From the NCBI RefSeq assembly GCF_000759025.1, contig NZ_JPOS01000012.1:310001-374000 (forward strand): a stretch of 64,000 bases of DNA, written 5' to 3'. Both the position numbers and the translations under genes were made by a program. The notes beneath the pieces are model-generated. The model saw nothing but the letters and a program-made list of their open reading frames with translations, was not told where the DNA came from and searched no databases. Source of the DNA: Phaeodactylibacter xiamenensis (GTDB lineage: Bacteria; Bacteroidota; Bacteroidia; Chitinophagales; Saprospiraceae). This document shows positions 38,794-54,965 of this stretch, piece after piece (position 1 is the first letter of the stretch; each line of letters starts with the position of its first letter).

Positions 38794-39165
38794 ATGGTTG
38801 TAGTTTACCTGACCTCCACGTTCAAAAAGACAGCCAAGCGGTTGAGCAAAAAATATAGGTCATTAAAAAAGGATTTACTAGGGCTGATTACAGAGCTGGA
38901 GGAGAACCCTGTAAAAGGGATCAAAATTGGCGAAAACACTTACAAGATAAGGCTAGCTGTAAAAAGCAAAGGAAAAGGCAAAAGTGGCGGCCTGCGAGTT
39001 ATCACTTTCCTTTACAGCAGAATAGCAGATACCGAAAGCCAAGAAGTTTACTTACTTGACCTTTTCGACAAATCAGACTTAGATAATTTGCCAAAGTCCT
39101 ATATCCAAAACCTTGTAGCTCTACTGGAACAGGAGCTTACGGAACAAACGCAGGAAGAAGAATAA
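38794..39165 (+). CDS. RelE/ParE-family toxin
   Basis: 123 residues, strongly basic in its first 80. The features fit the RelE/ParE fold: TSTFKKTAKRLSKKYRSLKK, LEENPVKGIKIGENTYKIRL, SKGKGKSGGLRVITFLYS and YLLDLFDKSDLDNL. Toxins of this fold are ribosome-dependent mRNA interferases (RelE) or gyrase inhibitors (ParE); which applies cannot be told. The acidic C-terminal tail (EQELTEQTQEEE) is longer than usual. It is partnered with the preceding antitoxin-like gene, and uvrB begins 13 bases after it. Confidence 0.85.
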   Translation: MVVVYLTSTFKKTAKRLSKKYRSLKKDLLGLITELEENPVKGIKIGENTYKIRLAVKSKGKGKSGGLRVITFLYSRIADTESQEVYLLDLFDKSDLDNLPKSYIQNLVALLEQELTEQTQEEE

Positions 39166-39178
39166 ATAACAAATTTCT

Positions 39179-41203
39179 ATGCCCTTCAATCTCCAATCCC
39201 CCTTCAGCCCCACCGGCGATCAGCCACAGGCCATTGAGCAGCTCATTCAGGGTGTGGAAGGGGGAGAACAGGCGCAGGTACTGCTCGGCGTAACCGGCTC
39301 CGGTAAGACCTTTACCATGGCCAACGCCATTGCCCGCCTGAACCGCCCGACCCTTATTCTCACCCACAATAAAACCCTGACTGCACAGCTCTACGGCGAA
39401 TTCAAGGAATTTTTCCCCGATAATGCGGTGGAGTACTTTGTCTCCTACTACGATTACTATCAGCCGGAAGCCTACATTTCCACTACCGATACCTTTATTG
39501 AGAAAGACCTTGCCATCAACGAAGAAGTGGATAAGCTGCGGCTCAGGGCGACCTCCTCGCTCCTGTCGGGGCGGCGCGACATCATCATCGTGGCCTCTGT
39601 GTCCTGCATCTATGGTATGGGCAACCCGGAAGACTACAAAAGCAGCATTATCCGGATCAAAGTGGGACAGACAATCTCCCGGAACAACTTCCTGTACAGC
39701 CTTGTGAACAGCCTGTATTCGCGCACCGAGACTGACTTCCGGCGGGCGACCTTCCGCGTGAAGGGCGATACCGTTGACATCAACCTGCCCTATGTTGACT
39801 TCGGCTACCGGGTAGTTTTCTTCGGGGACGAGATTGAGTCCATTGACCGCATTGAGATTGAAACCGGCAAGCGGATTGAAGGCATGGAAACCGCGGCGAT
39901 TTTCCCTGCCAACCTGTACATCGCCCCCAAAGACCGCATGAATCAGATCATCCGGGACATTGAGGATGAACTGCACGAACAGGAGAAATACTTTGAGCGC
40001 GAACTCCGCTTCCTCGAAGCCAAGCGCATCAAGGAGCGGACTACCTTCGACCTGGAGATGATCCGGGAACTGGGCTATTGCAACGGCGTCGAAAACTACT
40101 CCCGTTTCTTTGATGGCCGCCGCCCGGGCACCCGCCCCTTCTGCCTGCTCGATTACTTCCCGGACGACTACCTCATGATTATTGATGAGAGCCACGTGAC
40201 GGTGCCTCAGGTCCGGGGTATGTACGGAGGCGACCGCGCCCGAAAGCTGAGCCTGGTAGACAATGGCTTCCGCCTGCCCTCGGCCATGGACAACCGCCCG
40301 CTGAATTTCTCTGAATTTGAATCCCTCATCAATCAGGTCGTCTTCGTGAGTGCGACGCCGGGCGACTACGAGCTGGAAAAAACCGGAGGTGAACTGGTGG
40401 AGCAAATCATTCGCCCCACCGGCCTGCTCGACCCGCCCATTGAAGTGCGTCCGAGTATGAATCAGATTGATGACCTCATGGAAGAAATTCAAAAGCGTAT
40501 CGAACGGGAGGAGCGTGTACTGGTCACCACCCTCACCAAGCGAATGGCCGAGGAACTGACCAAATACCTGCAGCAGATGAATATCAAGGTCCGCTACATC
40601 CACAGTGAGGTGGACACGATGGAGCGGGTGGAAATCCTGCGTGACCTCCGCCTGGGTGAATTTGATGTGCTTGTTGGGGTCAACCTTCTGCGGGAAGGGC
40701 TCGACTTGCCGGAAGTGTCTCTTGTTGCCATTATCGATGCTGACAAGGAAGGATTCCTGCGCAACAACCGCTCCCTGACCCAGACCGCCGGACGGGCAGC
40801 CCGAAACTCTAATGGCCTAGTCATCTTCTACGCCGACAAGATCACCGATGCCATGCAAAGCACCATCGACGAGACCAACCGCCGGCGTTCCATACAGACA
40901 GCGTACAACGAGGAGCACGGCATCACCCCACAGACTGTCCGCAAGAGCCGGGACGAAATTATGGCCAAGAAGTCCATTCTCGACATCCGGGGCAATCAGA
41001 AGCGTGCCTATGTGGAGCCTGAAGAACCCAGCCTCGCTGCTGATCCGGTGCTACAATACATGAGCCGCGACAAGGTGGAGAAGATGATCGAAGATACCGA
41101 GCGTAAGATGAAAAAGGCAGCCAAGGAACTGGATTTCATCTCAGCTGCACAATTCCGGGACGAGCTCTTTGCGCTGAAGAAAAAGCTGAAGGAAGTGGCC
41201 TAA
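39179..41203 (+). CDS. uvrB: Excinuclease ABC subunit B
   Basis: 674 residues, standard size. UvrB of nucleotide excision repair: it verifies damage handed over by UvrA and recruits UvrC. Walker A LLGVTGSGKT (K43), beta-hairpin YYDYYQPEAYI, SSLLSGRRDIIIVASVSCIYG, helicase motif LDYFPDDYLMIIDESH, and the C-terminal UVR domain AAKELDFISAAQFRDEL that binds UvrC. All parts are complete. It follows the toxin-antitoxin genes at 13 bases but is probably independently expressed. A strong hairpin lies just after it. Confidence 0.97.
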   Translation: MPFNLQSPFSPTGDQPQAIEQLIQGVEGGEQAQVLLGVTGSGKTFTMANAIARLNRPTLILTHNKTLTAQLYGEFKEFFPDNAVEYFVSYYDYYQPEAYISTTDTFIEKDLAINEEVDKLRLRATSSLLSGRRDIIIVASVSCIYGMGNPEDYKSSIIRIKVGQTISRNNFLYSLVNSLYSRTETDFRRATFRVKGDTVDINLPYVDFGYRVVFFGDEIESIDRIEIETGKRIEGMETAAIFPANLYIAPKDRMNQIIRDIEDELHEQEKYFERELRFLEAKRIKERTTFDLEMIRELGYCNGVENYSRFFDGRRPGTRPFCLLDYFPDDYLMIIDESHVTVPQVRGMYGGDRARKLSLVDNGFRLPSAMDNRPLNFSEFESLINQVVFVSATPGDYELEKTGGELVEQIIRPTGLLDPPIEVRPSMNQIDDLMEEIQKRIEREERVLVTTLTKRMAEELTKYLQQMNIKVRYIHSEVDTMERVEILRDLRLGEFDVLVGVNLLREGLDLPEVSLVAIIDADKEGFLRNNRSLTQTAGRAARNSNGLVIFYADKITDAMQSTIDETNRRRSIQTAYNEEHGITPQTVRKSRDEIMAKKSILDIRGNQKRAYVEPEEPSLAADPVLQYMSRDKVEKMIEDTERKMKKAAKELDFISAAQFRDELFALKKKLKEVA

Positions 41204-41212
41204 AAGTACAAA

Positions 41213-41250
41213 GGCAGGTGCTGATCATGCTCAACACCTGCCCGGTATTT
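41213..41250. terminator. Shared terminator between uvrB and argJ
   Basis: GGCAGGTG (41213-41220) pairs with CACCTGCC (41235-41242). T-rich sequence follows on both strands (CGGTATTTCTTT to the right; TTTGTACTTTTA on the minus strand), so it can serve both convergent genes. Confidence 0.65.
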
Positions 41251-41268
41251 CTTTCCGTAACAGACCAA

Positions 41269-42498
41269 TCAGGTTGTATAAACCGAGTTGAACATTACAT
41301 AATCCGTTGTCAGGTCAGCTCCCCAGCCAACGCCCTGCCCGTCGCCGGCATTCATATCCAGCCGGATGCGCAGGTGAGACTCCCGAAGCAGCCGCTTGAC
41401 GTGGTTGCGGTCGAAGTCTGCGGGCTTTCCTTTGTCCAGTACCTGTATCAAAGTCTCATTATCGCCCAGATGCAGATCGACATTAGCGTAGTCGAATGGC
41501 ACACCGGCATTGCCCGCCGCACAAACAATACGCCCCCAGTTAGGATCACGCCCGAACATGGCAGCCTTCACCAGGGTGGAGTCCGAAATTTCGCGGACCA
41601 GCGTGCGCGCCACTTTGTCAGAGGGTGCACCGACAACCTGATACTCAATGAACTTGGACGCCCCTTCCCCATCGGAGATGATCAGCTTTGCGAGGTGGAC
41701 CATCATTTCCTCCAGTCGATTGCGGAACAGCTGATACCCTTCATCCTTTTCTGACTTGATCATTTCATTCCCGGCCATGCCGTTGCAGAGTACAGCCACC
41801 ATGTCATTGGTAGAGGTATCCCCATCTACCGTGATCATATTAAAAGACAGGTCGACACACTCTTTTACCGCTTTGTTCAGCAGCTTAGGCTCGATGGCCA
41901 GGTCGCAGACGATAAAGCCGAGCATAGTCGCCATATTGGGGTGGATCATACCCGACCCTTTAGAGATACCCGCAATATTAATGGTGGTGCCATTCAGGTC
42001 GAAATCCATGAAGCCCTCTTTGGCGAAGGTGTCGGTGGTCAGGATGGCGTTGGCCGCAAAAGAGCCGGCTTTAGCATCATTGGAAAGCTTCGCCATATTC
42101 TCGCGAATGCCTGAGACGACATCCTCAGTTGGGAAAGGCTCACCGATCAGACCGGTAGAGGCTACAATGACCAGCTCTTTTTCGATACCTAGTTCTTCGG
42201 CAGCCGACTGCGCCATGGCTTCAGCTGCCAGGCGGCCCTGCTCGCCGGTACAGGCATTAGCATTGCCGGCATTACAAACGATGAGCTGGGCTTTCCCGCT
42301 TTTGATGTGCTCCCGGGAAAGCTTGACCGGTTCGGCCACCACTTCGTTCTGAGTGAAAGTACAAGCCGCACTGGCAGGCACTTCCGAGTAAATAAGCGCC
42401 AGGTCACGCCGCATCGACTTGATACCAATGTGTGCGCCCCAGCATTTGATGCCCCGGACCGTGGTAAGGTTTCTTATCATTTTGTTGTTGGTGTTCAT
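41269..42498 (-). CDS. argJ: Glutamate N-acetyltransferase / acetylornithine transferase ArgJ
   Basis: 409 residues. ArgJ moves the acetyl group from N-acetylornithine back to glutamate, giving ornithine and recycling the acetyl group. The self-cleavage site that creates the nucleophile is intact: HPNMATMLGF, with T191 as the new N-terminus of the beta chain; the family's GSGMIHP precedes it. It is the last gene of a seven-gene operon, 14 bases after argC. With argB, argC and argD it completes glutamate to ornithine. No carbamoyltransferase or argG/argH is present in the window. Confidence 0.95.
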   Translation of the reverse strand: MNTNNKMIRNLTTVRGIKCWGAHIGIKSMRRDLALIYSEVPASAACTFTQNEVVAEPVKLSREHIKSGKAQLIVCNAGNANACTGEQGRLAAEAMAQSAAEELGIEKELVIVASTGLIGEPFPTEDVVSGIRENMAKLSNDAKAGSFAANAILTTDTFAKEGFMDFDLNGTTINIAGISKGSGMIHPNMATMLGFIVCDLAIEPKLLNKAVKECVDLSFNMITVDGDTSTNDMVAVLCNGMAGNEMIKSEKDEGYQLFRNRLEEMMVHLAKLIISDGEGASKFIEYQVVGAPSDKVARTLVREISDSTLVKAAMFGRDPNWGRIVCAAGNAGVPFDYANVDLHLGDNETLIQVLDKGKPADFDRNHVKRLLRESHLRIRLDMNAGDGQGVGWGADLTTDYVMFNSVYTT

Positions 42499-42512
42499 GC
42501 AGTATATAGGGT

Positions 42513-43547
42513 TTATGGGTTGAGTGGCAAGGATACAAAGCCACGGGTTTCGGGTAAGCCAAATTGCAGATTCATATTCTGCATAGCCTGGCCTGCCGCA
42601 CCTTTTACCAAATTATCGATGGCAGCCAAAGTGATGATCCGGTTGGTACGCTCGTCGTAAGTCGTGAAGATATCGCAGAAGTTGGAGCTCCGCACGTCCT
42701 TCAGGGTAGGTGGTGTTTTGCGCAAACGCACAAAAGGAGCATCTGCGTAGAAGTCTTCGTACAGCTTCCTAAGCGCCTGATCGCTCACCTCCTCCCGAAT
42801 GGGGGTGGTGTAAATGGTGGACAGAATACCCCGGTCAACCGGCAGCAAATGGGGTGTAAACTGTACTTGAAGAGGCTCCGGCCGCAGACCGGACAGCTGC
42901 TCCTGTATTTCCACAGTGTGGCGATGAGACTTCAGCCCGTAGGCTTTAAAATTATCGCTGACGTTGGAGTAGTGCGTAGTCGGTTTTGCCTTAATACCCG
43001 CACCGGTTATGCCTGACTTGGAGTCTACAATCACGTGCGCCGGATCTACCCAGCCTGCCTCTATCAGCGGTGCGAGCCCCAGAATAGCGCTCGTAGGATA
43101 GCAGCCGGGGTTAGCAACTAATGAGGATTTTTCAATGGCAGCGCTATGCAGTTCAGGCAACCCATAAACGGCATCTTCGAAGCCTTTGGGGTGGGTGTGG
43201 TCTTTTTTGTACCAGGCTTCGTAGACTTCAGGGGAAGAAAGCCGGAAATCCCCGGACAGGTCGACAACATTAAACTTTGCCGATTGGTACCCCTTCACGT
43301 AGTCCATGGAAACACCATGCGGGAGCGCCAGAAATACCATATCCAGCTCTGTCTCCAGAACAGCCGAAGCCGGCTGCAGGACATGATCGACCAACCCCTC
43401 AAAGTGCGGGTGGACGGCCGAAAAGGGCTCTCCTTTACGGCTTTCCGAAGTGATCATTTGAATTTCCACATCCGGGTGGTTGTACAACAGACGCACAAGC
43501 TCAGACCCGGTGTAGCCCGTAGCGCCAACAATTGCTGTTTTGATCAT
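42513..43547 (-). CDS. argC: N-acetyl-gamma-glutamyl-phosphate reductase
   Basis: 344 residues. It reduces N-acetylglutamyl phosphate to the semialdehyde with NADPH. The N-terminal Rossmann motif is VGATGYTGSE (residues 7-16), and the thiol nucleophile is Cys149 in VANPGCYPTSAI. PLPHG-like and SKSGITGAGIKAKPTTHYSN segments also match the long type 1 ArgC. It lies 34 bases behind argD and 14 before argJ in the minus-strand operon. Confidence 0.96.
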   Translation of the reverse strand: MIKTAIVGATGYTGSELVRLLYNHPDVEIQMITSESRKGEPFSAVHPHFEGLVDHVLQPASAVLETELDMVFLALPHGVSMDYVKGYQSAKFNVVDLSGDFRLSSPEVYEAWYKKDHTHPKGFEDAVYGLPELHSAAIEKSSLVANPGCYPTSAILGLAPLIEAGWVDPAHVIVDSKSGITGAGIKAKPTTHYSNVSDNFKAYGLKSHRHTVEIQEQLSGLRPEPLQVQFTPHLLPVDRGILSTIYTTPIREEVSDQALRKLYEDFYADAPFVRLRKTPPTLKDVRSSNFCDIFTTYDERTNRIITLAAIDNLVKGAAGQAMQNMNLQFGLPETRGFVSLPLNP

Positions 43548-43581
43548 CTATATGTAGGTGTCATTGTTTTTTTGGGTGGTT

Positions 43582-44799
43582 TTACAACTCGCCGCGCGAT
43601 TCCAGTGCATTGATGCAGGTAACGATGGTGTCTGCCAGGCGCTCCAGCTCTTCGTAGGAAATCACGAGTGGGGGCACCATGCGCAGCACGTTGTCGGCTG
43701 TGGCATTAGCGAGAACACCATGCTTTAGCATTTCCAGCACGAGCGGTTTGGTTTGAAAGTCGAACTCCACGCCAATCATCAGCCCGAGCCCGCGAATCTG
43801 ACGTAGCTTCGGGTGGGTACCCAGGCGGTCGTCCAGCATTTCCTTCAGCCAGAAACCTTTGCGCTGGGTTTGCTGCAGGATGTTTTCCTGGTCCATGGCT
43901 TCCAAAACGGCCAATCCGGCAGCACAAGCCATAGGGTTGCCTCCAAAAGTCGTTCCGTGGTCACCAAATTCGATGGTACTACTTACTTTCTCATTGCTCA
44001 GGATGGCCCCAACCGGTAATCCATTGCCCAGTCCTTTCGCCAGCGTCATAATATCCGGCTGTACTTCATAATGGTCCTTGGCAAAAAGTTCGCCGGTACG
44101 CCCGACTCCGCACTGAATCTCATCGAAAATCAGCACGATGTTTTCCTTATCGCAAAGCTCGCGCAAAGCACGCAGGTAGCAAGGCTTGGCTACATTAATG
44201 CCGCCCTCGCCCTGTACAGGCTCTACGATGATGGCCGCCACCTCTTCGGTAATCGCGGCGCGCACCGCTTCAATATCATTGAAAGGCACTTTCTGGAAGC
44301 CGGAAGGCATAGGGCCGAAGCCCTTCTGCATTTTCTTTTTCCCGGTAGCAATCGTAGCTAGTGTACGCCCGTGGAAGGACTTTTGCATAGAAATAATGGT
44401 GCCCCCCCTCCCGTTCGAGTGGGCATACTTACGGGCAATTTTGATAGCGCCTTCCACTGATTCTGCGCCGCTGTTGGAGAAAAACACCCGGTCCAGACCT
44501 GACCGCTTCACTAGTTGCTCCGACAGTTCTACCTGCGGCTCGCTTACGAAAAAATTAGAAATATGCATCAACTTGGCAGCCTGCTCCTGCAGCTTCTTCA
44601 CGACGTGCGGGTGGCAGTGCCCCAAATTGCAAACAGCGATGCCTGCCAGGGCGTCAAGGTATTCGTTGCCTTCCACGTCCCAGAGCTTAGCGCCCTCACC
44701 ACGGCTGAACGCCAGCGGCATACGGTTAAAAGTGGGCAGGTAATATTGTTTATCTACCTGATGTAAGGTGGCATTTGTGGTTTGTTCCTCTACAAGCAT
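43582..44799 (-). CDS. argD: Acetylornithine aminotransferase
   Basis: 405 residues, class III PLP aminotransferase. GSGAESVEGA-like phosphate loop (SNSGAESVEGAIKIAR), IFDEIQCGVGRTGELFA and the PLP Lys K255 in MTLAKGLGNGLPVGA are all present. In the operon it converts N-acetylglutamate semialdehyde to N-acetylornithine. Members of this family can also act on ornithine, succinylornithine or diaminopimelate precursors, so substrate is set by context. Its start overlaps the stop of argB by 10 bases, implying translational coupling. Confidence 0.94.
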   Translation of the reverse strand: MLVEEQTTNATLHQVDKQYYLPTFNRMPLAFSRGEGAKLWDVEGNEYLDALAGIAVCNLGHCHPHVVKKLQEQAAKLMHISNFFVSEPQVELSEQLVKRSGLDRVFFSNSGAESVEGAIKIARKYAHSNGRGGTIISMQKSFHGRTLATIATGKKKMQKGFGPMPSGFQKVPFNDIEAVRAAITEEVAAIIVEPVQGEGGINVAKPCYLRALRELCDKENIVLIFDEIQCGVGRTGELFAKDHYEVQPDIMTLAKGLGNGLPVGAILSNEKVSSTIEFGDHGTTFGGNPMACAAGLAVLEAMDQENILQQTQRKGFWLKEMLDDRLGTHPKLRQIRGLGLMIGVEFDFQTKPLVLEMLKHGVLANATADNVLRMVPPLVISYEELERLADTIVTCINALESRGEL

Positions 44800-45617
44800 A
44801 TTTCTGTTCCTATTGAGTGGTTATCGGATTGCACGACTTCAGCGATGGTGTCTGGCTTCGTGCCATTTATAATGCGGGCATGCCGGGCACCGTGCTCCAG
44901 GGCAATTTGACAGGATTCCAACTTGGGGATCATGCCGCCTTTGATCACACTGCCATAAAGCCCGGGCAATTCTTCAAGCGTTAGCCGCTGAATGAGCGAA
45001 GACGGGTCCTCAATATCCCTGAGCAGCCCGTCTACATCGGTCAGTACCAGGTAATCCTGTGCCTTCAGGGCACCAGCCAGAGCACCGGCGAACATGTCGG
45101 CGTTCACGTTGTAGTCCTGCCCCGCTTCATCGGAAGCAATACAGGTAACAACAGGCACAAAGTTATTCGAAAGCAACGTCTTCAAAAGCCGGGTGTCTAC
45201 TTTAGTGACATCGCCAACCTGACCGAGGTCGAAACGCTCAGTCTGCCCGTTTTCGGTTACTTCGTGGTAACGCTTTACCGCGGTGACCATTCGCCCGTCC
45301 TTACCAGACAAGCCTACCGCACGCATTCCTGCTTTATTTAACAAATGAACCAGGCTGCTGTTGACTTCGCCCTTGAGCGCCATCTCAATGTACTTCAGTG
45401 CCTCCGGTGTCGTCTTGCGGTGGCCGCCGATAAATTCGGACTCAATGCCCACCGTTTTAAGGATATTTTTGATGAACGGGCCACCGCCGTGCACCAACAC
45501 CACCTTTGTACCTGACTCCTGTAATTTTTTGATATTGGCGACCACAGCAGACTTCAGCTCGTCGTTGAGCATGGCGTTGCCGCCGTACTTGATTAATACT
45601 ATAGGTTCCTGCTCCAT
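44790..45617 (-). CDS. argB: Acetylglutamate kinase
   Basis: 275 residues, amino-acid kinase fold: LIKYGGNAM at the start (phosphate Lys), VLVHGGGPFI, NVNADMFAGALAGAL (substrate/ATP segment) and VIKGGMIPKLESC. It phosphorylates N-acetylglutamate, the second step to ornithine and usually the feedback-controlled one. The arginine-sensing N-terminal helix of inhibited enzymes is absent (the sheet starts at residue 8), so control may differ, an inference. It is 8 bases from the racemase gene. Confidence 0.94.
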   Translation of the reverse strand: MEQEPIVLIKYGGNAMLNDELKSAVVANIKKLQESGTKVVLVHGGGPFIKNILKTVGIESEFIGGHRKTTPEALKYIEMALKGEVNSSLVHLLNKAGMRAVGLSGKDGRMVTAVKRYHEVTENGQTERFDLGQVGDVTKVDTRLLKTLLSNNFVPVVTCIASDEAGQDYNVNADMFAGALAGALKAQDYLVLTDVDGLLRDIEDPSSLIQRLTLEELPGLYGSVIKGGMIPKLESCQIALEHGARHARIINGTKPDTIAEVVQSDNHSIGTEICL

Positions 45618-45625
45618 AAATTCTT

Positions 45626-46825
45626 CTATCGGACAATTTTTCGGGGAATAGCAGTGGGCAAACGGCTCAGCATCTCATTGTTCAGCAACTGCGTATAATT
45701 GGTAAATGAACTGACGTTGATGGTGTTGTTCTTCTGCTTGCCCAGCAGTACCACCTCGTCCCCTGTATTCACGTTTGGGATGTCGCCAATGTCCACCATA
45801 AATAAGTTCATATTGATCAGACCTGTGATCCGGGCTTTCCGGCCGTTTATCAGCACATAGCCCCGGTTGGACTGCCCGCGGGGGTAACCATTGCAGTAAC
45901 CCACCGGGATGACGGCAATATCCATATCGTGCGTAGCCTGAAAAGCCGTACCGTAGCCAATGAAGTCTCCTTTTGGTACATGCTTGATATCCATGATATC
46001 CGACTTCCAGGTGATGATGCGGCTCATGGGAGTATCCTTCATCTTACTCACGGACTGCAGGTGCTGATAGTAAACATCCGGGCTTGGCCAGAAGCCATAA
46101 GTTGCCACGCCAACCCGGACCATATCATAATGGGTTTCGGGCATCACTAAAGCGGAGGCGGAGCAGGCGATATGCCGGGTTACAGGCATATACTTTCGCT
46201 TCTTACATTCTGCCAGATAGTTTTTGTACCGTTCTTTCTGTTGTTCCGTCCGGAAGGTACTGCTTAGAGACTCAGCCCCTCCAAGATGTGTGCACAGCCC
46301 CTGAAAAGTGATGTGCTCGTTGTTTCGCTTGAGGAAGGTAAGCGCTTTTTTGAAGTATTCCTCTGTCATTCCGGTACGGTTGGTGCCCGTTTCCACTTCG
46401 ATATGCACCTTAGCCTTGCGATTTAGCTTTTTGGCTTTTTCCAACACCAGTTTCAGCCGCTCGTAATTGAACACATAAAATTCAATATCATGCGCAATGG
46501 CCCATTCGATATCATTATCATACAGAATGCCCATGATCATAATATCTGTACCTGCTTTCCGGAACTCAAGTACCTCTTCCGCTTCGTAAGCTGAGGCCAC
46601 AGAAATGTGGTCAACACCAACCTTGCCCAACATAGTCACGATTTGCGGTATACCGTGCCCGTAGGCATTAGCTTTTACCACACAGGACAGGCGCGTGCCC
46701 TCAGATAGTTTCTTCCGAATAAAGTTGATATTCTTCTTTAGCCCGGACTGACTGAGCTCAATGCGGGAGGTGTGCTTAACATTCCGTACGAAAGGCTCAA
46801 AGTGCCCAATTTGCTTCTTTGTCAT
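45626..46825 (-). CDS. Alanine racemase-family PLP enzyme
   Basis: 399 residues. Fold-type III racemase: PLP Lys K51 in VVKANAYGHG, catalytic Tyr Y291 in FIGYGTAFQA, and MVRVGVATYGFWPS. The usual SMDQ of alanine racemases reads NMNL here (INMNLFMVDIGD), and the N-terminal 20 residues are extra. Alanine, broad-specificity and lysine/ornithine racemases share this fold, so the substrate is open; D-alanine for the cell wall is the default. Its position between an unknown protein gene and argB, with gaps of 12 and 8 bases, makes ornithine or an acetylornithine product a candidate, by inference. Confidence 0.85.
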   Translation of the reverse strand: MTKKQIGHFEPFVRNVKHTSRIELSQSGLKKNINFIRKKLSEGTRLSCVVKANAYGHGIPQIVTMLGKVGVDHISVASAYEAEEVLEFRKAGTDIMIMGILYDNDIEWAIAHDIEFYVFNYERLKLVLEKAKKLNRKAKVHIEVETGTNRTGMTEEYFKKALTFLKRNNEHITFQGLCTHLGGAESLSSTFRTEQQKERYKNYLAECKKRKYMPVTRHIACSASALVMPETHYDMVRVGVATYGFWPSPDVYYQHLQSVSKMKDTPMSRIITWKSDIMDIKHVPKGDFIGYGTAFQATHDMDIAVIPVGYCNGYPRGQSNRGYVLINGRKARITGLINMNLFMVDIGDIPNVNTGDEVVLLGKQKNNTINVSSFTNYTQLLNNEMLSRLPTAIPRKIVR

Positions 46826-46837
46826 AATTATTTTTCA

Positions 46838-48817
46838 TTAAATCCACCGGTACTTACGCCCCCAGCTTTCCTTCGATAGCCTGGTCACTTTGGCTACTGT
46901 TTCGACCGGCACCTGATGGTGTTTGTCCTCCAGGCGGAGCTCATTGAAATGGAAAGCGTAAACCCGGGAGACGAACTCATCCACCGGAAGCGAAGACTCG
47001 CCGTGGCGCTCTCCGTTGTCCCAAACCGTTGGCTCAATGCCCTGTCCCCAGTCCTGCTTACCCTGACTGTTGGGATTGAAGAAGTACGCCCGCCACGCTT
47101 CCGTTTCGGGCACTTTTTCAATTCGTAACAGGGAAATGGCATGGTAGCCCAACATCTGAGCCGAGGAGTCGGTGATGAAAATCCCTGTTGGCACCGGATA
47201 AATCAGATGGTGGCCGCCGTTGTAATCCGGATGGAAGGAAGCGTAGAAAATACGCACAAACTCATCGTACTTTTCAACGGCATGCAGTGCAGGATTGTAC
47301 ACCGAACGGAAGCCGGTTTGAATCCAATGCCCGTAAAAGGCAGGGTTTACAGACGCATGGGGATCTTTGCCAAAGTGCTTTAGCCCGGCGCGCTTCATCA
47401 TTTCGTTGTACACCTTATCCAGCAGCGGGACCAAAACAATGGAAACCGGATCCAGCTGAAAGTCGAACTGCTGCGTCAAACCCTCCGTGACATCCTGCGA
47501 TTTTATCTGATCACCTTCGTAGCGGAAGACTACATTATTGGTAGTTGCAGCATCAATCATCATATTGATGAGCTTGGCCGGTGCGTAGCGGCTCCACATA
47601 CTAATGCCTCTTGCAGATTGGCAAGTAGGGTTGTTGCCCTGACGGACGCCGAGCGGCAGCCCCAGCACACAGAGTATCCCCCCGATAAGTGACTGTATGG
47701 GAGACAAATCAAACCGGGTCAGGTTACCTTGTTCAAGCCGCTTTGCAACCTCAGGGTGCACCTTGATTTTCACCAACCGGTTGATGGCATGCCAGGCTGT
47801 TTTTTGGGAAAAGATGTTGCGCTGCAGTACTCTCGCCAGCCCATACACCGCTTGTTTGTTGCCGGGAACAATAAAATCCTGAATTATCTGATGTACAAAA
47901 TCCTGATGCCGCTCGTAATCTGCCCGGCCATGAGCGTTCAGGGCCAGCACTTCAGGTATCATATCCGTATGATACTTGCGCACAAATTGCAACAGCACCA
48001 ACTGATGTTCCGAAACCAGCCCGGTATCCACCATCATTTTGCCTACTTCCTGACACTCCTGCCGCAAGGCATCTGCATCCAGGTTTTCCAGGGCGGTCTC
48101 GTACTGCCCGGGAGATTTATACTTGCGGGCAAGCTCTGTAGGACCGAAGAGGGTGTTGATAAAATAGCTCAGCCGGCGGTCCTGCTTTTCACTCAGGTCA
48201 AGTGTAAGCTCCCGGCTGATTACGCTTAAAATCCGCTTAATACGGGTAACGACAACAGGGCGGTGCGCTACAATAACCTCAATTTTTTCCAGCAAATGAG
48301 GTTTAATTTGCTGCAGGTCAACCCGCTCCCGGACTATACCGAAGAGCATTCTGATCTTTTTCAGCTCTCCATCTGCATACCGGGCGCTCCACCCTTCGTG
48401 CTCAAAATCCTCAAAGGCCAGCTCAAAGGTATTCACCAGCATACTGTAGATGAAGCCCCTTGCCTGTTCAGCCGAAAAATCAGGGTGGCTGATCCTGCCT
48501 TCGCTGATATTGAGTATTCGAAATTCGTTTAGCATTTCGATCGTACTCGTGGGCGAGCCCGCAAGCAGTGTCCCTCTTACCAGTCCGGGTATGAGATTGT
48601 TAGGATTTTCCCATACCGTCCCGTTAAAAAATCCGGATTCGTCCAGCTCGGGAAGCCGGTGATACAGGAGTTGCCCTCCCTCTTCATTTCGGCTAAGTAA
48701 GTCGATCTGACTGATGAGCCGTTTCCGCTTGTCATCCTTACTAAAAGAAGGTGCTTCCTGAAAAGCTTGCAGGCTATGCAGGAAACGGTCTTCCAACTGA
48801 TCTAAGGTTAATGCCAT
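46838..48817 (-). CDS. Unrecognised 659-residue protein with a papain-like C-terminal half
   Basis: No family recognised. Residues 1-350 look helical. The C-terminal half has what resembles a papain-like catalytic set: Cys399 in GNNPTCQSARGISMW, His559 in MLGYHAISLLRIEKV and Asn581 in AYFFNPNSQGKQDWG, in the order and spacing of transglutaminase- and protease-like folds (His on a strand, then Asn/Asp before a turn). A second His pair is at GGHHLIYPVPTG. No signal peptide, so it acts in the cytoplasm. It is tightly coupled to the ATP-grasp gene (7 bases) and racemase gene (12 bases), suggesting peptide or amide bond chemistry. The fold is an inference. Confidence 0.7.
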   Translation of the reverse strand: MALTLDQLEDRFLHSLQAFQEAPSFSKDDKRKRLISQIDLLSRNEEGGQLLYHRLPELDESGFFNGTVWENPNNLIPGLVRGTLLAGSPTSTIEMLNEFRILNISEGRISHPDFSAEQARGFIYSMLVNTFELAFEDFEHEGWSARYADGELKKIRMLFGIVRERVDLQQIKPHLLEKIEVIVAHRPVVVTRIKRILSVISRELTLDLSEKQDRRLSYFINTLFGPTELARKYKSPGQYETALENLDADALRQECQEVGKMMVDTGLVSEHQLVLLQFVRKYHTDMIPEVLALNAHGRADYERHQDFVHQIIQDFIVPGNKQAVYGLARVLQRNIFSQKTAWHAINRLVKIKVHPEVAKRLEQGNLTRFDLSPIQSLIGGILCVLGLPLGVRQGNNPTCQSARGISMWSRYAPAKLINMMIDAATTNNVVFRYEGDQIKSQDVTEGLTQQFDFQLDPVSIVLVPLLDKVYNEMMKRAGLKHFGKDPHASVNPAFYGHWIQTGFRSVYNPALHAVEKYDEFVRIFYASFHPDYNGGHHLIYPVPTGIFITDSSAQMLGYHAISLLRIEKVPETEAWRAYFFNPNSQGKQDWGQGIEPTVWDNGERHGESSLPVDEFVSRVYAFHFNELRLEDKHHQVPVETVAKVTRLSKESWGRKYRWI

Positions 48818-48824
48818 ATACTAA

Positions 48825-50048
48825 TTATACGTAAAAGGGTACATCCTCGTAATGCTTCAACAATTCCCGCATGCGTACAGGATCTTCACCGGCGAAGTTA
48901 ACGGTGCCAAAGTGATTACCAAAACCGCTGCGTTCTGTAATCTTCTGTGGCCCCAGTGGTTCTACAAGATTGTTATCAAGGTAGTAAGGCTCTTCCAGCA
49001 GTTCTTCCGGGATTTCCAAACGGGAAATTTGCCCGGGCTTGGGGAATACCATAACGTTGCCGTACTTTTTCTCTGGCATATAGCCCTTTGATGGGAAATA
49101 TTTGTCCAGTTCCTCCTCCGATATATTGGGGTCGTGGCTGACTACAAAAGCGAGCAGTGCGTCGAAGCCATAAGCTTGCCCACAGAGATCCAAAATATGA
49201 CCACCGGGAATCCGGCAGGCGACCTCGCCGAAATTAATGGTCTTGCCATCATCACTGACAAACCACTCCGGGTGGACCATTCCGAACTCTATGCCGAAGA
49301 TGTCCACCATTTTCTGCACTTCATTGTGAATCAGCTCCCGCTTAGCTTCCAGCTCAGGGCCTGCGGGGATGAAGTTGGAATAGCCCAGCTTTACGTATTC
49401 TGTTATATTGAGAAAGCGGATCTTTCCTTTGTGAATAAAAGCTTCACAGGAAAATTCTTTGCCGCTCAGGTGGCTTTCCACCAGGCAGGGAAAATCCTTA
49501 ACCGTCATCTTACGGTCTATATCATCACGGGACCGGACAAAGTGATGCCCAACCGTACCCGCTGCTGCAAATGGTTTGGCGTGGAACCAGGCATCTTCCT
49601 CGCCGGGCAACTGTAGTTCTGCTTCATTGAGGCGATCAAGGAACTTATGGACATGCTCTCTGTCATAGACCTCTTCGAACAGCCCTACCTTCAGGCCGCC
49701 CAGCAGCGCCTTACGTTTCATCATTGCCTTATTTCGAAAAAGGAAGGCCCGGTTGAGCACGCGGGGGGCATCACGATAGATCGAGTTCAGTGCTCCTGCC
49801 CATTCCACAGTTTCTTCGTACAGGGGCACTGCTACATCAGCATTAAAAGGCTTGAGCAATTCTACTAATTCCAGAGAATTGGAATGCGAACCAAACTCAT
49901 CCAGTTTGTATCCGACAAACGGGATATTATGCTCTTTGGCATAAGCGCCAAATTCAGGAAATGAAACAACAACGTAAGGGAGACCAGATTTTTGTACACT
50001 CTCAATCACGGGCAGGCTCCAGCCCATGAGTGCAAAACAGTTAGCCAT
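48825..50048 (-). CDS. ATP-grasp ligase
   Basis: 407 residues. An N-terminal pre-ATP-grasp domain (residues 1-95) is followed by ATP-grasp: LFRNKAMMKRKALLGGLKVG, HAKPFAAAGTVGHHFV (nucleotide-binding loop) and FLNITEY, ending with metal ligands GMVHPEWFVSDDGKTINF / FGEVACRIPGGHI. Such enzymes form amide bonds between a phosphorylated carboxylate and an amine (dipeptide and L-amino-acid ligases, carbamoyl-phosphate synthase-like ligases). The partners are unknown. It is the first gene of the operon that continues through an unknown protein, a racemase and argB-argD-argC-argJ. Confidence 0.85.
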   Translation of the reverse strand: MANCFALMGWSLPVIESVQKSGLPYVVVSFPEFGAYAKEHNIPFVGYKLDEFGSHSNSLELVELLKPFNADVAVPLYEETVEWAGALNSIYRDAPRVLNRAFLFRNKAMMKRKALLGGLKVGLFEEVYDREHVHKFLDRLNEAELQLPGEEDAWFHAKPFAAAGTVGHHFVRSRDDIDRKMTVKDFPCLVESHLSGKEFSCEAFIHKGKIRFLNITEYVKLGYSNFIPAGPELEAKRELIHNEVQKMVDIFGIEFGMVHPEWFVSDDGKTINFGEVACRIPGGHILDLCGQAYGFDALLAFVVSHDPNISEEELDKYFPSKGYMPEKKYGNVMVFPKPGQISRLEIPEELLEEPYYLDNNLVEPLGPQKITERSGFGNHFGTVNFAGEDPVRMRELLKHYEDVPFYV

Positions 50049-50249
50049 AAATATTTAAGGGTTTTATGATTTCAGTTCACCGGGCTTCTCCGGGACCACA
50101 TTTTATATGAATGAAATTTTCGGGAATTCCAAATTTTTTCACTTTTTATCACTTCAAAAGGGCATTTTGACCTTTAAGTTATTTTTTTGGGTAACAAACT
50201 ACTACTTCAGCTTCGATAATCTCTAAAATCGATCAAATAATTACCAAAA

Positions 50250-50277
50250 CAAAGATAACACCCTCATAAACGTGCAA
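50250..50277 (-). promoter_or_regulatory. Candidate promoter of the seven-gene operon
   Basis: On the minus strand, TTG (50277-50275), 17 bases, then TATCTTTG (50257-50250), an exact -7 match. It lies about 200 bases upstream of the ATP-grasp start codon. Confidence 0.5.
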
Positions 50278-50324
50278 AATATTAACAAAACGAACCTCAG
50301 GTTTGTGCTATCGAATACTCAGAT

Positions 50325-50356
50325 TTGCAAACTTCTTTTTTTTGGCGGTATCTTTG
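50325..50356 (+). promoter_or_regulatory. Promoter of the cysQ-like gene
   Basis: TTG (50325-50327), 21 bases, TATCTTTG (50349-50356). The -7 element ends 4 bases before the ATG at 50361, so a leaderless transcript is predicted unless translation starts further in. Confidence 0.6.
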
Positions 50357-50360
50357 AGCT

Positions 50361-51173
50361 ATGAACGCAACACACGTCCTCAATTTTCTTAAGCGGATCG
50401 CCCGGGAAGCCGGATCTATAATGATGGAACGGATTGACGGGCAATACAAAGTCTACGAGAAGCCCGACCATTCAAGGGTAACGGATGTAGACCTGGCCAT
50501 CTCTAAGCTACTGCAGGCTCAGGTGGAAGCAGAACTCAATGGGATCGAGCTATACAGCGAAGAGTCTCCCAAGTCGGCGATCGACCGCAGCAGGCCTTAC
50601 ATTATAGCCGATGAGCTTGACGGCACGAGCTACTACATAGACCTTAAAAAAGGGTTTTCGCATCAATCAGCCTACTATCATCCCGAGCATGGGCTGTGCG
50701 TAGGCCTGGTTTATTATCCCCGGATTGACACGCTGATTTACGCAATTAAGGGACAAGGGGCCTACATTGAAGAAGGAGGAGCCGCACCACAACGGATCAC
50801 CCCTCCTGCTCCTAAGCCGGTCGAAGCCCTTACTTTCGCACATCCATTGCGCTACCGGGGCGAACGTTACAACAACCTTTACCGCAAACTGGGCGCTGAT
50901 GACGACCGGATACTCCGGACAGATGCCCGGCGTACCCTCATGATGGCGAAGGGCGAACTTGACGTTAATATATTCCTGTCCCCCCGAATCCCTTACTGGG
51001 ACTTAAGCGGAGAGAAAGTTATTGTTGAAGAGCTGGGGTACAGCCACAGTTACCTCAACCGGCAGCCGGTAGAATTTGGGAAGCCGCCTCCCAAACCCAA
51101 CCTTGGCTACCTGATCTGCCCGGAAGAATGGAAAGAAAAATTCTTTACGGAAACACCACGGCTGATTGCATGA
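50361..51173 (+). CDS. Inositol monophosphatase-family (CysQ-like) phosphatase
   Basis: 270 residues. The metal-binding motifs of the IMPase family are present: YSEES (Glu), ADELDGTSYYI (DxLDGT) and YWDLSGEKVIVEELG (WDxxxG). This gives a lithium-sensitive, magnesium-dependent phosphatase for inositol phosphates or 3'-phosphoadenosine 5'-phosphate (CysQ). Substrate not assignable. It is followed by a kinase gene whose ATG overlaps its TGA stop, so translation is coupled. Confidence 0.88.
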   Translation: MNATHVLNFLKRIAREAGSIMMERIDGQYKVYEKPDHSRVTDVDLAISKLLQAQVEAELNGIELYSEESPKSAIDRSRPYIIADELDGTSYYIDLKKGFSHQSAYYHPEHGLCVGLVYYPRIDTLIYAIKGQGAYIEEGGAAPQRITPPAPKPVEALTFAHPLRYRGERYNNLYRKLGADDDRILRTDARRTLMMAKGELDVNIFLSPRIPYWDLSGEKVIVEELGYSHSYLNRQPVEFGKPPPKPNLGYLICPEEWKEKFFTETPRLIA

Positions 51174-52072
51174 GTACCGCCCGTACGCCCGGAAAACTGC
51201 TCCTTTTTGGTGAATACACCGTCTTGCTGGGCAGCACAGCTCTGGCACTGCCCCTACCCCACCTTTTTGGAGAATGGGCAACCGGTTCTACCCCACCGAG
51301 CCATGACCTGTTACCTTTTGCAGCGCACCTCCATTTCCTGGATCAGGAGGGGCGACTATTGGCTCCCCTTGACACTCAACGGTTCCTTCAGGAGGTAAAA
51401 TCTGGCCTGTACTTCCATTCCAACATCCCGGTGGGATATGGTGCCGGCAGCTCTGGCGCACTTTGCGCAGCTGTTTATGAACGCTATGCTAATCCGGCAA
51501 TCGCAAAAGACAATACCACCGCCCTTTCTACGCTGCAGCAACAGCTGGCACAACTGGAGAGCTACTTCCACGGGGAAAGCTCCGGGGCAGACCCCCTGAT
51601 CTGCTATCTGCAGCACCCCCTGCTAATTGAGCAAAATACTATCCGGCCGGTCTCTGTAGCCCAAAGCTCCGGAGACAGCGGCCTGTTTTTCCTTATAGAT
51701 ACAGGGATTAGCCGGCGAACAGGGCCCCTGGTTCAGCAATTCAAAGCCAAATGCGAGTCTGACCATTTCCGGGAACAGGCACTGCGCCAACTGGCTACGC
51801 CAACCACCGCTGCCACCCATGCCTATCTGGAACAAAATACAGCCCAGCTCGAACGCGCCTTACTTCAAATCGCGACAGCCCAGCTCAACCTGCTCAGGGA
51901 CTTTATTCCAGAGCTCTTCCGGCCAGTTTGGGAAGAGGGGCTGCAATCCCATCAGTTTTACCTGAAACTCTGTGGTGCCGGCGGCGGCGGTTTTCTGATT
52001 GGCTACAGCCCGAACAGACAATTGCCCGCATCAATTGAGGCGCAGCGGTTGCATCCTTTGCCGGAGGTGTAA
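51170..52072 (+). CDS. GHMP-family kinase (mevalonate kinase-like)
   Basis: 300 residues from the ATG at 51170, which overlaps the upstream TGA (ATGA). An earlier frame start at 51128 lies inside the neighbour and is unlikely. GHMP motifs: RTPGKLLLFGEYTVL, ATP loop IPVGYGAGSSGAL, and the C-terminal KLCGAGGGGFLIGY. This fits mevalonate kinase (mevalonate to 5-phosphomevalonate) in the isoprenoid pathway, known in several Bacteroidota, although galactokinase-like alternatives cannot be excluded. It ends before a strong terminator. Confidence 0.8.
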   Translation: MSTARTPGKLLLFGEYTVLLGSTALALPLPHLFGEWATGSTPPSHDLLPFAAHLHFLDQEGRLLAPLDTQRFLQEVKSGLYFHSNIPVGYGAGSSGALCAAVYERYANPAIAKDNTTALSTLQQQLAQLESYFHGESSGADPLICYLQHPLLIEQNTIRPVSVAQSSGDSGLFFLIDTGISRRTGPLVQQFKAKCESDHFREQALRQLATPTTAATHAYLEQNTAQLERALLQIATAQLNLLRDFIPELFRPVWEEGLQSHQFYLKLCGAGGGGFLIGYSPNRQLPASIEAQRLHPLPEV

Positions 52073-52577: not shown

Positions 52578-54965
52578 TTGAAAAAAACGACTGTTCAACA
52601 AGATGTTCTACCTATAGCGCCCGAGGAGGCGCTGCACGATTATTACATCTGCTGCCTCAGCCGTGAGGTTAGCCTGACGATAAGGCGGGAAGTACTCACC
52701 GGGAAGGCTAAATTCGGCGTTTCCGATGACGGCAAAGAGCTTTTTCAGGTGGCTATGGCCAAGGCGTTTCGAAAAGGGGATTTCAGATCAGACTATTACC
52801 GGGGGCATACTTTATTGCTGGCGCTCGAGCTGGCCACCCCTGAGGACTTGTTTGCACAACTCTATGCAGACGCCGACAACGACCCCTTTTCCGGCGGCCG
52901 TCAGATGAACAACCACCATGCCACTCCGCTGATCACACCTGAAGGCGACTGGCTCAATCACCGGGAGCGCTACAACCTCAGTTCCGATATTTCCACAACT
53001 GCCGGGCAGATGGCCCGTGGGATCGGCCTGGCCATGGCTTCCAAAAAGTACAGAGACCGGCCGGACCTGAAAGCAGAAAATTTCTCCGATAACGGGCAGG
53101 AGGTGGTCTTTTGCTGTATTGGAGATGCCTCGACTTCTGAAGGTGCTTTTTGGGAAACCATGAATGCCGCCGGGGTCCATCAATTGCCACTGGTAACGAC
53201 GGTAGCAGACGATGGCTATGGTATTTCCGTGCCCCGGGAGGTACAGACGACCAAAGACAGCATCAGTGAAGCCATGGCTGGTATGGAAGCCTCATCAGGC
53301 ACCAACGGTATTGGTATCTACAAGGTCAAAGGCTGGGACTATCCGGCTTTGTGCGAAGCCTATGAACAAAGCGCTTCCCAAGCCCGCCTTAACCACCGCC
53401 CTGCACTGGTTCACGTGGAGGAGCTGACGCAGCCACAGGGGCATTCCACCTCTGGCTCCCACGAGCGGTATAAGTCCAAAGCCCGCCTGAAATGGGAAGC
53501 CGAACACGATTGCAACCGTAAGTTTAAGCGCTGGCTGCTGGAGGAAGGCATCGCAAGCGAGCAGGAGCTCGAAGACTTGGAGCAAAAAGCCCAAAAAGCG
53601 GTAAAACAAGCACGTAGCCGGGCCTGGAAACGATACAACGAGCCCATTCAGCAGGTTTGGAAAACCCTAAAGGCTGATTTCGCCCAGCTGGCAACCGATG
53701 CGGGCACAGACCGTGCCCGCCGCATTGAGGATGCCCTAAAAGCTCTGATCAATCCGGTACGGGCGGATATCGTCAAGCTGATCCGGCAAATGCTTTTTGC
53801 CACCCGGCAACTCGACACGCCAGAGCGGCAGCGCCTGCAAGCTTTCCTTGAGGAGGTCAACCAGACCATGGAGCAGCGTTACCACACCCACCTCTACAGC
53901 CAAACGGACCGTGCAGCGCTAAAGGTACCGGTAAATCCACCCGTTTACAGCGACGATGCGCCAGTTTTGAACGGGTACGAAATTCTTAATCAGTTTTTCG
54001 ATCAGGCCATGAGCAGCCGGCCGGAGCTTTTTGCCTTCGGAGAGGATGTCGGTAAAATCGGCGATGTCAACCAGGGCTTTGCCGGGCTGCAGGAGAAGCA
54101 CGGCGCAGAACGCATCTTTGATACCGGCATCCGGGAGTGGACCATCATGGGCTATGCCCTGGGCATGGCGATGCGCGGGCTGCGCCCAATTGCGGAAATT
54201 CAGTACCTGGACTATCTGATTTACGGTCTTTCTCCGCTTTCTGATGACCTCGCCACACTCCGCTACCGCAGCAACAGCATCCAGGCTGCCCCGGCTATCA
54301 TACGTACCCGAGGCCACCGGCTGGAAGGCATTTGGCACTCTGGCTCTCCAATTAGCGTGTTGCTGGGCGCCTTGCGGGGCATCCACCTGCTGGTCCCCAG
54401 AAATATGGTGCAGGCGGCTGGGTTTTACAACACACTGCTACAGTCTGATGACCCCGGACTAATTATCGAATGCCTGAATGGCTACCGGCTAAAAGAACGG
54501 CTACCTGACAACCTCAATACCTTTACGGTACCCATTGGGGTGCCGGAAATACTCAGAGAAGGCGAAGACGTCACTTTGCTCACATATGGCTCTTGTGTAA
54601 GGGTTGCCGAAGCAGCCTGTGACCAACTGGAAGAAGAAGGGATTTCGGTGGAACTGATAGACGCCCAAAGCCTGTTGCCTTTCGATTTGGAGCACCTGAC
54701 CGTTGGCTCTCTTCAAAAGACCAACCGCCTGGTGGTGCTTGATGAAGATGTGCCCGGTGGCGCTTCTGCCTATCTGCTGCAACAGGTACTGGAACAACAG
54801 GGCGGCTACAGATGGCTGGACAGCAAGCCGGTGACCATTACCGCGACAGACCACCGGCCTCCTTACGGGACGGATGGCGATTACTACTCCAAACCCAATC
54901 CGGAGGATGTGTTTGAGCGCATTCTTGAAATGATGCAGGAAGCAGAGCCAGGGAGGTTTGCTTAG
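52578..54965 (+). CDS. 2-oxoacid dehydrogenase E1, fused alpha and beta subunits
   Basis: 795 residues from a TTG start; no in-frame ATG fits earlier. Residues about 1-370 are the thiamine-binding alpha part ([36 protein letters not shown]), and about 445-795 the beta part ([33 protein letters not shown]). The usual GDG of the thiamine motif reads GDA here. Such alpha-beta fusions are common in Bacteroidota for branched-chain 2-oxoacid dehydrogenases; E2 and E3 are not in the window. The complex feeds acyl-CoA synthesis. It ends 4 bases inside the convergent panD gene. Confidence 0.88.

Follow-up and report, generated by a model that had tools for sequence, protein, structure and literature searches.

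Why should a bacterium with a separate arginine operon carry a further set of ornithine genes, packed into one transcription unit with a ligase, a papain-like protein and a racemase? The question is raised by a 64,000-nucleotide window (the whole stretch of DNA analysed) from Phaeodactylibacter xiamenensis, in which seven open reading frames (ORFs) lie in tandem on the minus strand at positions 41269-50048, in the 5' to 3' order ATP-grasp ligase, papain-like protein, racemase, argB, argD, argC and argJ, with successive gaps, from the ligase to argJ, of 7, 12, 8, -10, 34 and 14 bases. The initial annotation had given exactly these coordinates and gaps, and had read the operon as a biosynthetic cluster, with ordinary arginine synthesis and three unrelated riders as the alternative. 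The operon is probably dedicated to a small non-ribosomal peptide, with the four arg genes (the block) producing free L-ornithine from glutamate and the three leading genes (the trio) incorporating it.

Two sets of arg genes in one genome

The identities proposed for the four arg genes were upheld, given that all of the proteins exceed the cut-offs of their NCBIfam models, with 232 bits for argB (cut-off 151), 435 bits for argC (cut-off 234) and 462 bits for argJ (cut-off 351), all against equivalog models, and 499 bits for argD (cut-off 410), against a subfamily model. The argB match runs from residue 7, and the protein begins at the kinase core, with the N-terminal extension absent. These are the same four enzymes as in the acetyl-cycling ornithine pathway. 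Unlike the ordinary form of this pathway, however, the argB and argC of the operon are second copies, the others being in a distinct arginine operon of the same genome (G000), found on contig C20 (L121) and ordered argG-argC-argF'-argB-argE-argH. There are two copies of argC genome-wide (two PF22698 matches) and a single copy of argJ (one PF01960 match).

The argF' of the C20 operon is an N-acetylornithine carbamoyltransferase (NF003384, 298.7 bits against a cut-off of 288), and its argE-like deacylase scores below the ArgE equivalog cut-off. No ornithine carbamoyltransferase was found genome-wide, the two PF00185 matches being the N-acetylornithine carbamoyltransferase and pyrB, and the arginine route of the genome therefore most likely passes through acetylcitrulline. 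No recognised carbamoyltransferase would consume the free ornithine that ArgJ releases. The window had been described as having no carbamoyltransferase, argG or argH, which is correct, as the carbamoyltransferase and full argG matches of the genome lie on other contigs, and argH, for which no genome-wide search was made, sits beside argG in the C20 operon. This operon does not include argD, the next-best class-III aminotransferase of the genome by score is an ornithine aminotransferase, and there are five weaker ones, so that the argD of the window may be shared with the arginine route.

Co-occurrence and linkage of the trio and the block

The distribution of these genes was followed in 99 relatives and in a phylum sample of 395 genomes. 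The papain-like gene is present in 11 of the relatives and argJ in 12, that is, the same 11 and G035, so that argJ is found in 11/11 genomes with the papain-like gene versus 1/88 of the others (Fisher p 1e-13) or, by genus, in 7/7 versus 1/80 (Fisher p 1e-9), in tests that ignore kinship. One argC group (E 5.5e-58 or better) occurs in exactly those 12 genomes, with all other argC at 2.6e-49 or worse. The tie carries information within the order, given that argJ is common in the phylum sample (155 of 395 genomes). The four true carriers of the papain-like gene in the phylum sample (P. xiamenensis itself, G199, G305 and G321) all have an argJ match, which is weak in G199, and in G305 only argJ, argC and argB were matched; a spurious match in G125 (23% identity, seven stops) was left out of the counts. 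G035, for its part, carries a full argBDCJ block (L175, contig C67) and an ornithine-racemase-like gene with no papain-like gene, a state that reflects either the loss of this gene or another use of ornithine.

G000, G003, G004, G005 and G035 have the full argG domain, whereas G001, G012, G013, G018, G025, G034 and G071 show either no matches or short, weak ones; the match in G034 (27.3 bits) is just over the cut-off and covers positions 1-122 of 162. Of the 11 papain-gene relatives, 7 lack a full argG match and yet keep the block and the trio, five of these seven genomes being 97-100% complete, and the other 4 have the domain. Elsewhere in this search, argG was found in G006, G011, G199, G305 and G321, but not in G031 and G058, which are also the 2/99 relatives with an ornithine carbamoyltransferase over the cut-off, both without the papain-like gene.

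Physical linkage was assessed in the best 80 of 88 loci by likeness to the window ligase, a sample in which Phaeodactylibacter is over-represented. The papain-like gene lies directly downstream of the ligase in 78/80 loci, the contigs of the other two ending within 256 bases. The racemase comes next in 68 of these 78 pair loci, the contig ends in 8, and 2, both from Bacteriovoracales, have room but no racemase. The gene-order comparison that had been proposed for this locus weighs against the cluster, as frequent separation of the trio from argBCDJ had been named beforehand as the contrary outcome, and just 14/80 loci (7/45 with ample flank) have an argC or argJ of the block type in the vicinity. 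This count leaves out nine Cyclobacterium loci, in which other arg genes (34-40% identity) are divergent and about 2.5 kb off, and L019, with argB only, at a contig end. Within the order, the link between the trio and the block is supported by the whole-genome co-occurrence, which rescues it, and an unlinked argBDCJ block is present in the same order in G034, G071 and G013.

The linked loci have several layouts. The block follows the racemase in the Phaeodactylibacter group and in L042 (without an argB match), follows it with one gene inserted in Marinoscillum, precedes the ligase in the Saprospirales loci L049 and L089 and in G321 (L110, which groups with Fodinibius, Balneolaceae), and is divergent from the trio in L034 and L081. 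In G003, the operon is probably whole, since both of its contigs end within argB. The arg-linked loci fall in about five places on the ligase tree, two of them inside one unresolved cluster, and are not proven to be independent events, because 13 forks of the tree are open and the Marinoscillum and L049/L089 groups share this cluster.

Taken together, the co-occurrence, the several layouts, the separate arginine operon and the absence of a full argG match in 7/11 support the conclusion that the ornithine block is not for arginine synthesis, and strongly indicate that its ornithine is destined for the trio. The cluster claim of the initial annotation is partly supported, while the frequent physical separation of the trio from argBCDJ counts against it.

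The core of the system is the pair of ligase and papain-like genes, because it is also found with no racemase or arg genes next to it. In Bacteriovoracales (L095:9983-13182 and L096:3383-6597) the pair stands alone, with neither beside it, and on the megaplasmid NZ_CP040452.1 of Halomonas sp. PA16-9 (L196:10705-14043) it is found, at 45% and 36% identity, with no match to the window racemase or arg genes within about 10 kb; here the papain-like similarity extends no further than residue 615, after which the ORF continues into an unrelated tail. With the trio and the arg genes set aside, no neighbour family is found in more than 9/76 loci.

Some minor features of these loci were also observed. 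The gene inserted in the racemase-argB interval of Marinoscillum (L092:14375-15217 and L044:14449-15267) encodes about 270-280 residues with, by eye, a probable membrane segment. The L042 contig is titled Rickettsiales, but its ligase groups with Marinoscillum pacificum at near-zero branch length, so that it is probably mislabelled or mis-binned. In L096, a gene resembling (by eye) a BCCT transporter is located about 2.4 kb away from the pair. Viral carriage was rejected, as none of 19 pattern matches in viral contigs is related to the papain-like protein.

The trio and its possible product

The ATP-grasp protein is predicted, from its fold and conserved residues, to be an L-amino-acid ligase. 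A fold of the RizA/BacD type spans the full chain, with RizA as the closest solved fold, while PF13535 scores 25.0, just short of its cut-off of 27, and the D-Ala-D-Ala ligase model PF07478 has no match. Identity with RizA (rhizocticin cluster), BL00235 and YwfE/BacD (bacilysin cluster) is 14-18% in structural alignments. Residues E275, R279, G282 and G283 are kept in 37/37 aligned members (36 of 75 sequences and the window's own, after near-duplicates and a few others were dropped) and align with the corresponding motif of 4wd3, for which we presume a catalytic (metal/phosphate) role. What sets the window enzyme apart from these known ligases is its company, a papain-like protein and an ornithine pathway of its own. 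Of the phosphonate or anticapsin genes that would mark a rhizocticin or bacilysin cluster, the operon has none by family assignment, no search having been aimed at them.

The second protein had been called papain-like, rightly in our assessment, although no sequence model supports it: there is no match to any Pfam or NCBIfam model, and phmmer and profile searches against PDB and Pfam gave noise only. It is predicted to be a papain-like cysteine enzyme, with a helical N-terminal part (about residues 1-357) and a papain-like part (about 358-631), and represents an undescribed family of about 660 residues. C399, H559 and N581, in the order Cys-His-Asn, are invariant in 48/48 aligned members (47 of 70 sequences and the window's own, filtered in the same way). 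The ranges of a structural alignment pair residue 388 with residue 13 of staphopain, which, at the position that we assume for the catalytic Cys of the latter, would put C399 near it. Unlike its closest known counterparts, the papain-like cysteine peptidases (calpain core, staphopain, cathepsin B and bleomycin hydrolase), the protein matches no sequence family, has a large helical N-terminal part and sits in a biosynthetic operon. No signal peptide was seen by eye. In L034:11487-13392, the gene is broken into ORFs of 216 and 436 residues, apparently by a frameshift or an assembly error.

The racemase shares with the alanine and broad-specificity racemases the TIGR00492 match (287 bits against a cut-off of 168) and the catalytic Lys and Tyr, with the fold-type III residues K51 and Y291 kept in 37/37 members (36 of 66 sequences and the window's own, again filtered), but differs from them in pocket positions. 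Residue 383, which we take to be the equivalent of Tyr354 in the alanine-type C-terminal motif, is Asn in 34, Ala in 2 and Gln in 1 of the 37, and Tyr in none, and N338-M339-N340, in pocket positions placed on the same assumption, is found in 37/37, with Met-Asn in place of the usual Met-Asp. The VanT serine racemases also have Asn at the Tyr354 position. However, 4y2w, an annotated alanine racemase, likewise lacks this Tyr (Gln). Another Alr is found elsewhere in the genome, with a partial match to a MurF-Alr fusion model.

A second locus, on contig C29 (L124:2783-8029), contains a sodium symporter, an M20 amidohydrolase, a second alanine-racemase-like gene and an ornithine-racemase-like gene (NF040742, 323 bits, under the cut-off of 480). 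The last of these is present in 11/11 papain-gene relatives versus 5/88 others, with at least one of three C29-type neighbours beside it in 12/13 genomes examined. The C29 racemase is 43% identical to that of the operon, which is 27% identical to C98. Of the proteins that co-occur, the M20 and AstE-like ones gave DoeB2- and DoeB-like matches, respectively, that fall far short of the cut-off. These assignments suggest that the locus probably imports and degrades the operon's product, and strengthen the idea of D-ornithine.

In the proposed pathway, ArgJ, ArgB, ArgC and ArgD convert glutamate to ornithine by the acetyl-recycling route, as family assignment shows. The ATP-grasp ligase would then activate one amino acid as an acyl phosphate and couple it to another, ornithine presumably being one of the two substrates, and a D-residue, either ornithine or the other substrate, would probably come from the racemase. 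The papain-like protein would probably load the dipeptide on Cys399 as a thioester, and then transfer, cyclise or trim it, while the C29 locus would probably take up and break down the same compound. The biosynthetic system is conserved, and comparative genomics can link its duplicated ornithine pathway and its unnamed enzyme family (about 660 residues) to a single function; it would also open the way to a small peptide not yet described, which may be an osmolyte that is likewise new. If true, the routine annotation of argBDCJ as arginine synthesis would be overturned in these genomes, and the persistence of ornithine genes in genomes without a recognisable argG would be explained. The titles and abstract openings of a mainly open-access literature, including part of PMC9321006, contained no account of the gene set.

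The product may, more tentatively, be a new class of compatible solute, that is, a small ornithine-containing peptide, probably bearing a D-residue, finished by a new family of papain-like acyltransferases and served by its own re-uptake and degradation locus; as part of the same tentative proposal, the pair would form an osmoadaptation core of salt-adapted Bacteroidota, Balneolota, Gemmatimonadota, Bacteriovoracales and Halomonas. This suggestion derives from the apparently dedicated ornithine supply and the habitats of the named hosts of the ligase loci, which we take to be mostly marine, saline or soda-lake organisms. The osmolyte pathways of N-acetylglutaminylglutamine amide and ectoine are likewise small gene sets for dedicated small solutes, and the weak DoeB2- and DoeB-like matches noted above are a further likeness, but the enzymes of the operon differ from theirs.

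Other readings of the operon are less probable. In one, the ligase would modify a protein or cell-wall precursor with ornithine or a D-amino acid, and the papain-like enzyme would trim it, in a surface or peptide-tag system. The trio resembles VanG/VanXY/VanT in its logic and ATP-grasp ligases can tag proteins, although the lack of a PF07478 match, the modelling of the ligase on free-amino-acid ligases and the scarcity of recurrent neighbours make this reading unlikely. An inhibitory antimetabolite dipeptide, like those of the bacilysin and rhizocticin L-amino-acid-ligase clusters, would agree with the closeness to RizA, whose cluster makes such a compound, and yet no exporter or self-resistance gene is widely shared among the loci, and a dedicated ornithine supply would suggest a high-abundance product, which renders it distinctly improbable. 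The recycling or degradation of ornithine-containing peptides, with the papain-like protein as a peptidase and the argJ set serving another purpose, would fit the typically hydrolytic papain fold and the catabolic appearance of the co-occurring symporter and M20 locus, but is very unlikely for an operon that is headed by an ATP-grasp ligase closely packed with four biosynthetic arg genes. Ordinary arginine synthesis with three riders, despite the standard arginine genes, a possibly shared argD and the ordinary-looking arg genes near the trio in Cyclobacterium, is highly improbable in the light of the separate operon, the lack of an ornithine carbamoyltransferase match, the retention of block and trio without a full argG match, and the co-occurrence.

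Two further candidates were rejected, namely Van-type cell-wall resistance, as neither a D-Ala-D-Ala ligase match for the first protein nor any Pfam match for the second was obtained, and anti-phage defence, as PADLOC had no match for the first three proteins.

Boundaries, signals and neighbours of the operon

Coordinates of the operon genes and candidate signals in the window
Feature	Position	Strand	Model or remark
ATP-grasp ligase, 407 aa, L-amino-acid-ligase fold	48825..50048	-	first gene of the operon
Papain-like protein, 659 aa	46838..48817	-	unnamed family
Alanine-racemase-family PLP enzyme, 399 aa	45626..46825	-	TIGR00492
argB, N-acetylglutamate kinase	44790..45617	-	TIGR00761
argD, acetylornithine aminotransferase	43582..44799	-	TIGR00707
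argC, N-acetyl-gamma-glutamyl-phosphate reductase	42513..43547	-	TIGR01850
argJ, ornithine acetyltransferase	41269..42498	-	NF003802; releases free ornithine
Terminator-like stem-loop, 13 pairs, 3' of argJ	41212..41243	-	consensus match, not proof
Possible Bacteroidota -7 element TATCTTTG	50250..50257	-	about 200 bases 5' of the ligase gene

The stem 3' of argJ is the longest of 19 terminator-like sites in positions 40500-51500, where shuffled sequence gives 12.2. Upstream of the ligase, the call of TATCTTTG depends on a -7 motif that we assume for the Bacteroidota, the count of which is at chance in the whole window (38 matches versus 34.7 expected); sigma-70-type promoter matches are also at chance level (10 found versus 9.5 expected). 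An RNA element at the operon was rejected, with no Rfam match in 40000-51500.

The gene 5' of the operon (50361-51173, plus strand) points away from it, and belongs to a divergent couple of inositol-phosphatase/CysQ-like and mevalonate-kinase-like genes (50361-52072, plus strand) with a 46-base overlap, which also adjoins the operon in P. luteus (L020). Further along, at 52578-54965 on the plus strand, a single protein of 795 residues contains both the E1 alpha and beta parts of a 2-oxoacid dehydrogenase. On the other side of the operon, a small basic protein encoded at 38794-39165 on the plus strand may, by eye, be a RelE/ParE-like toxin.

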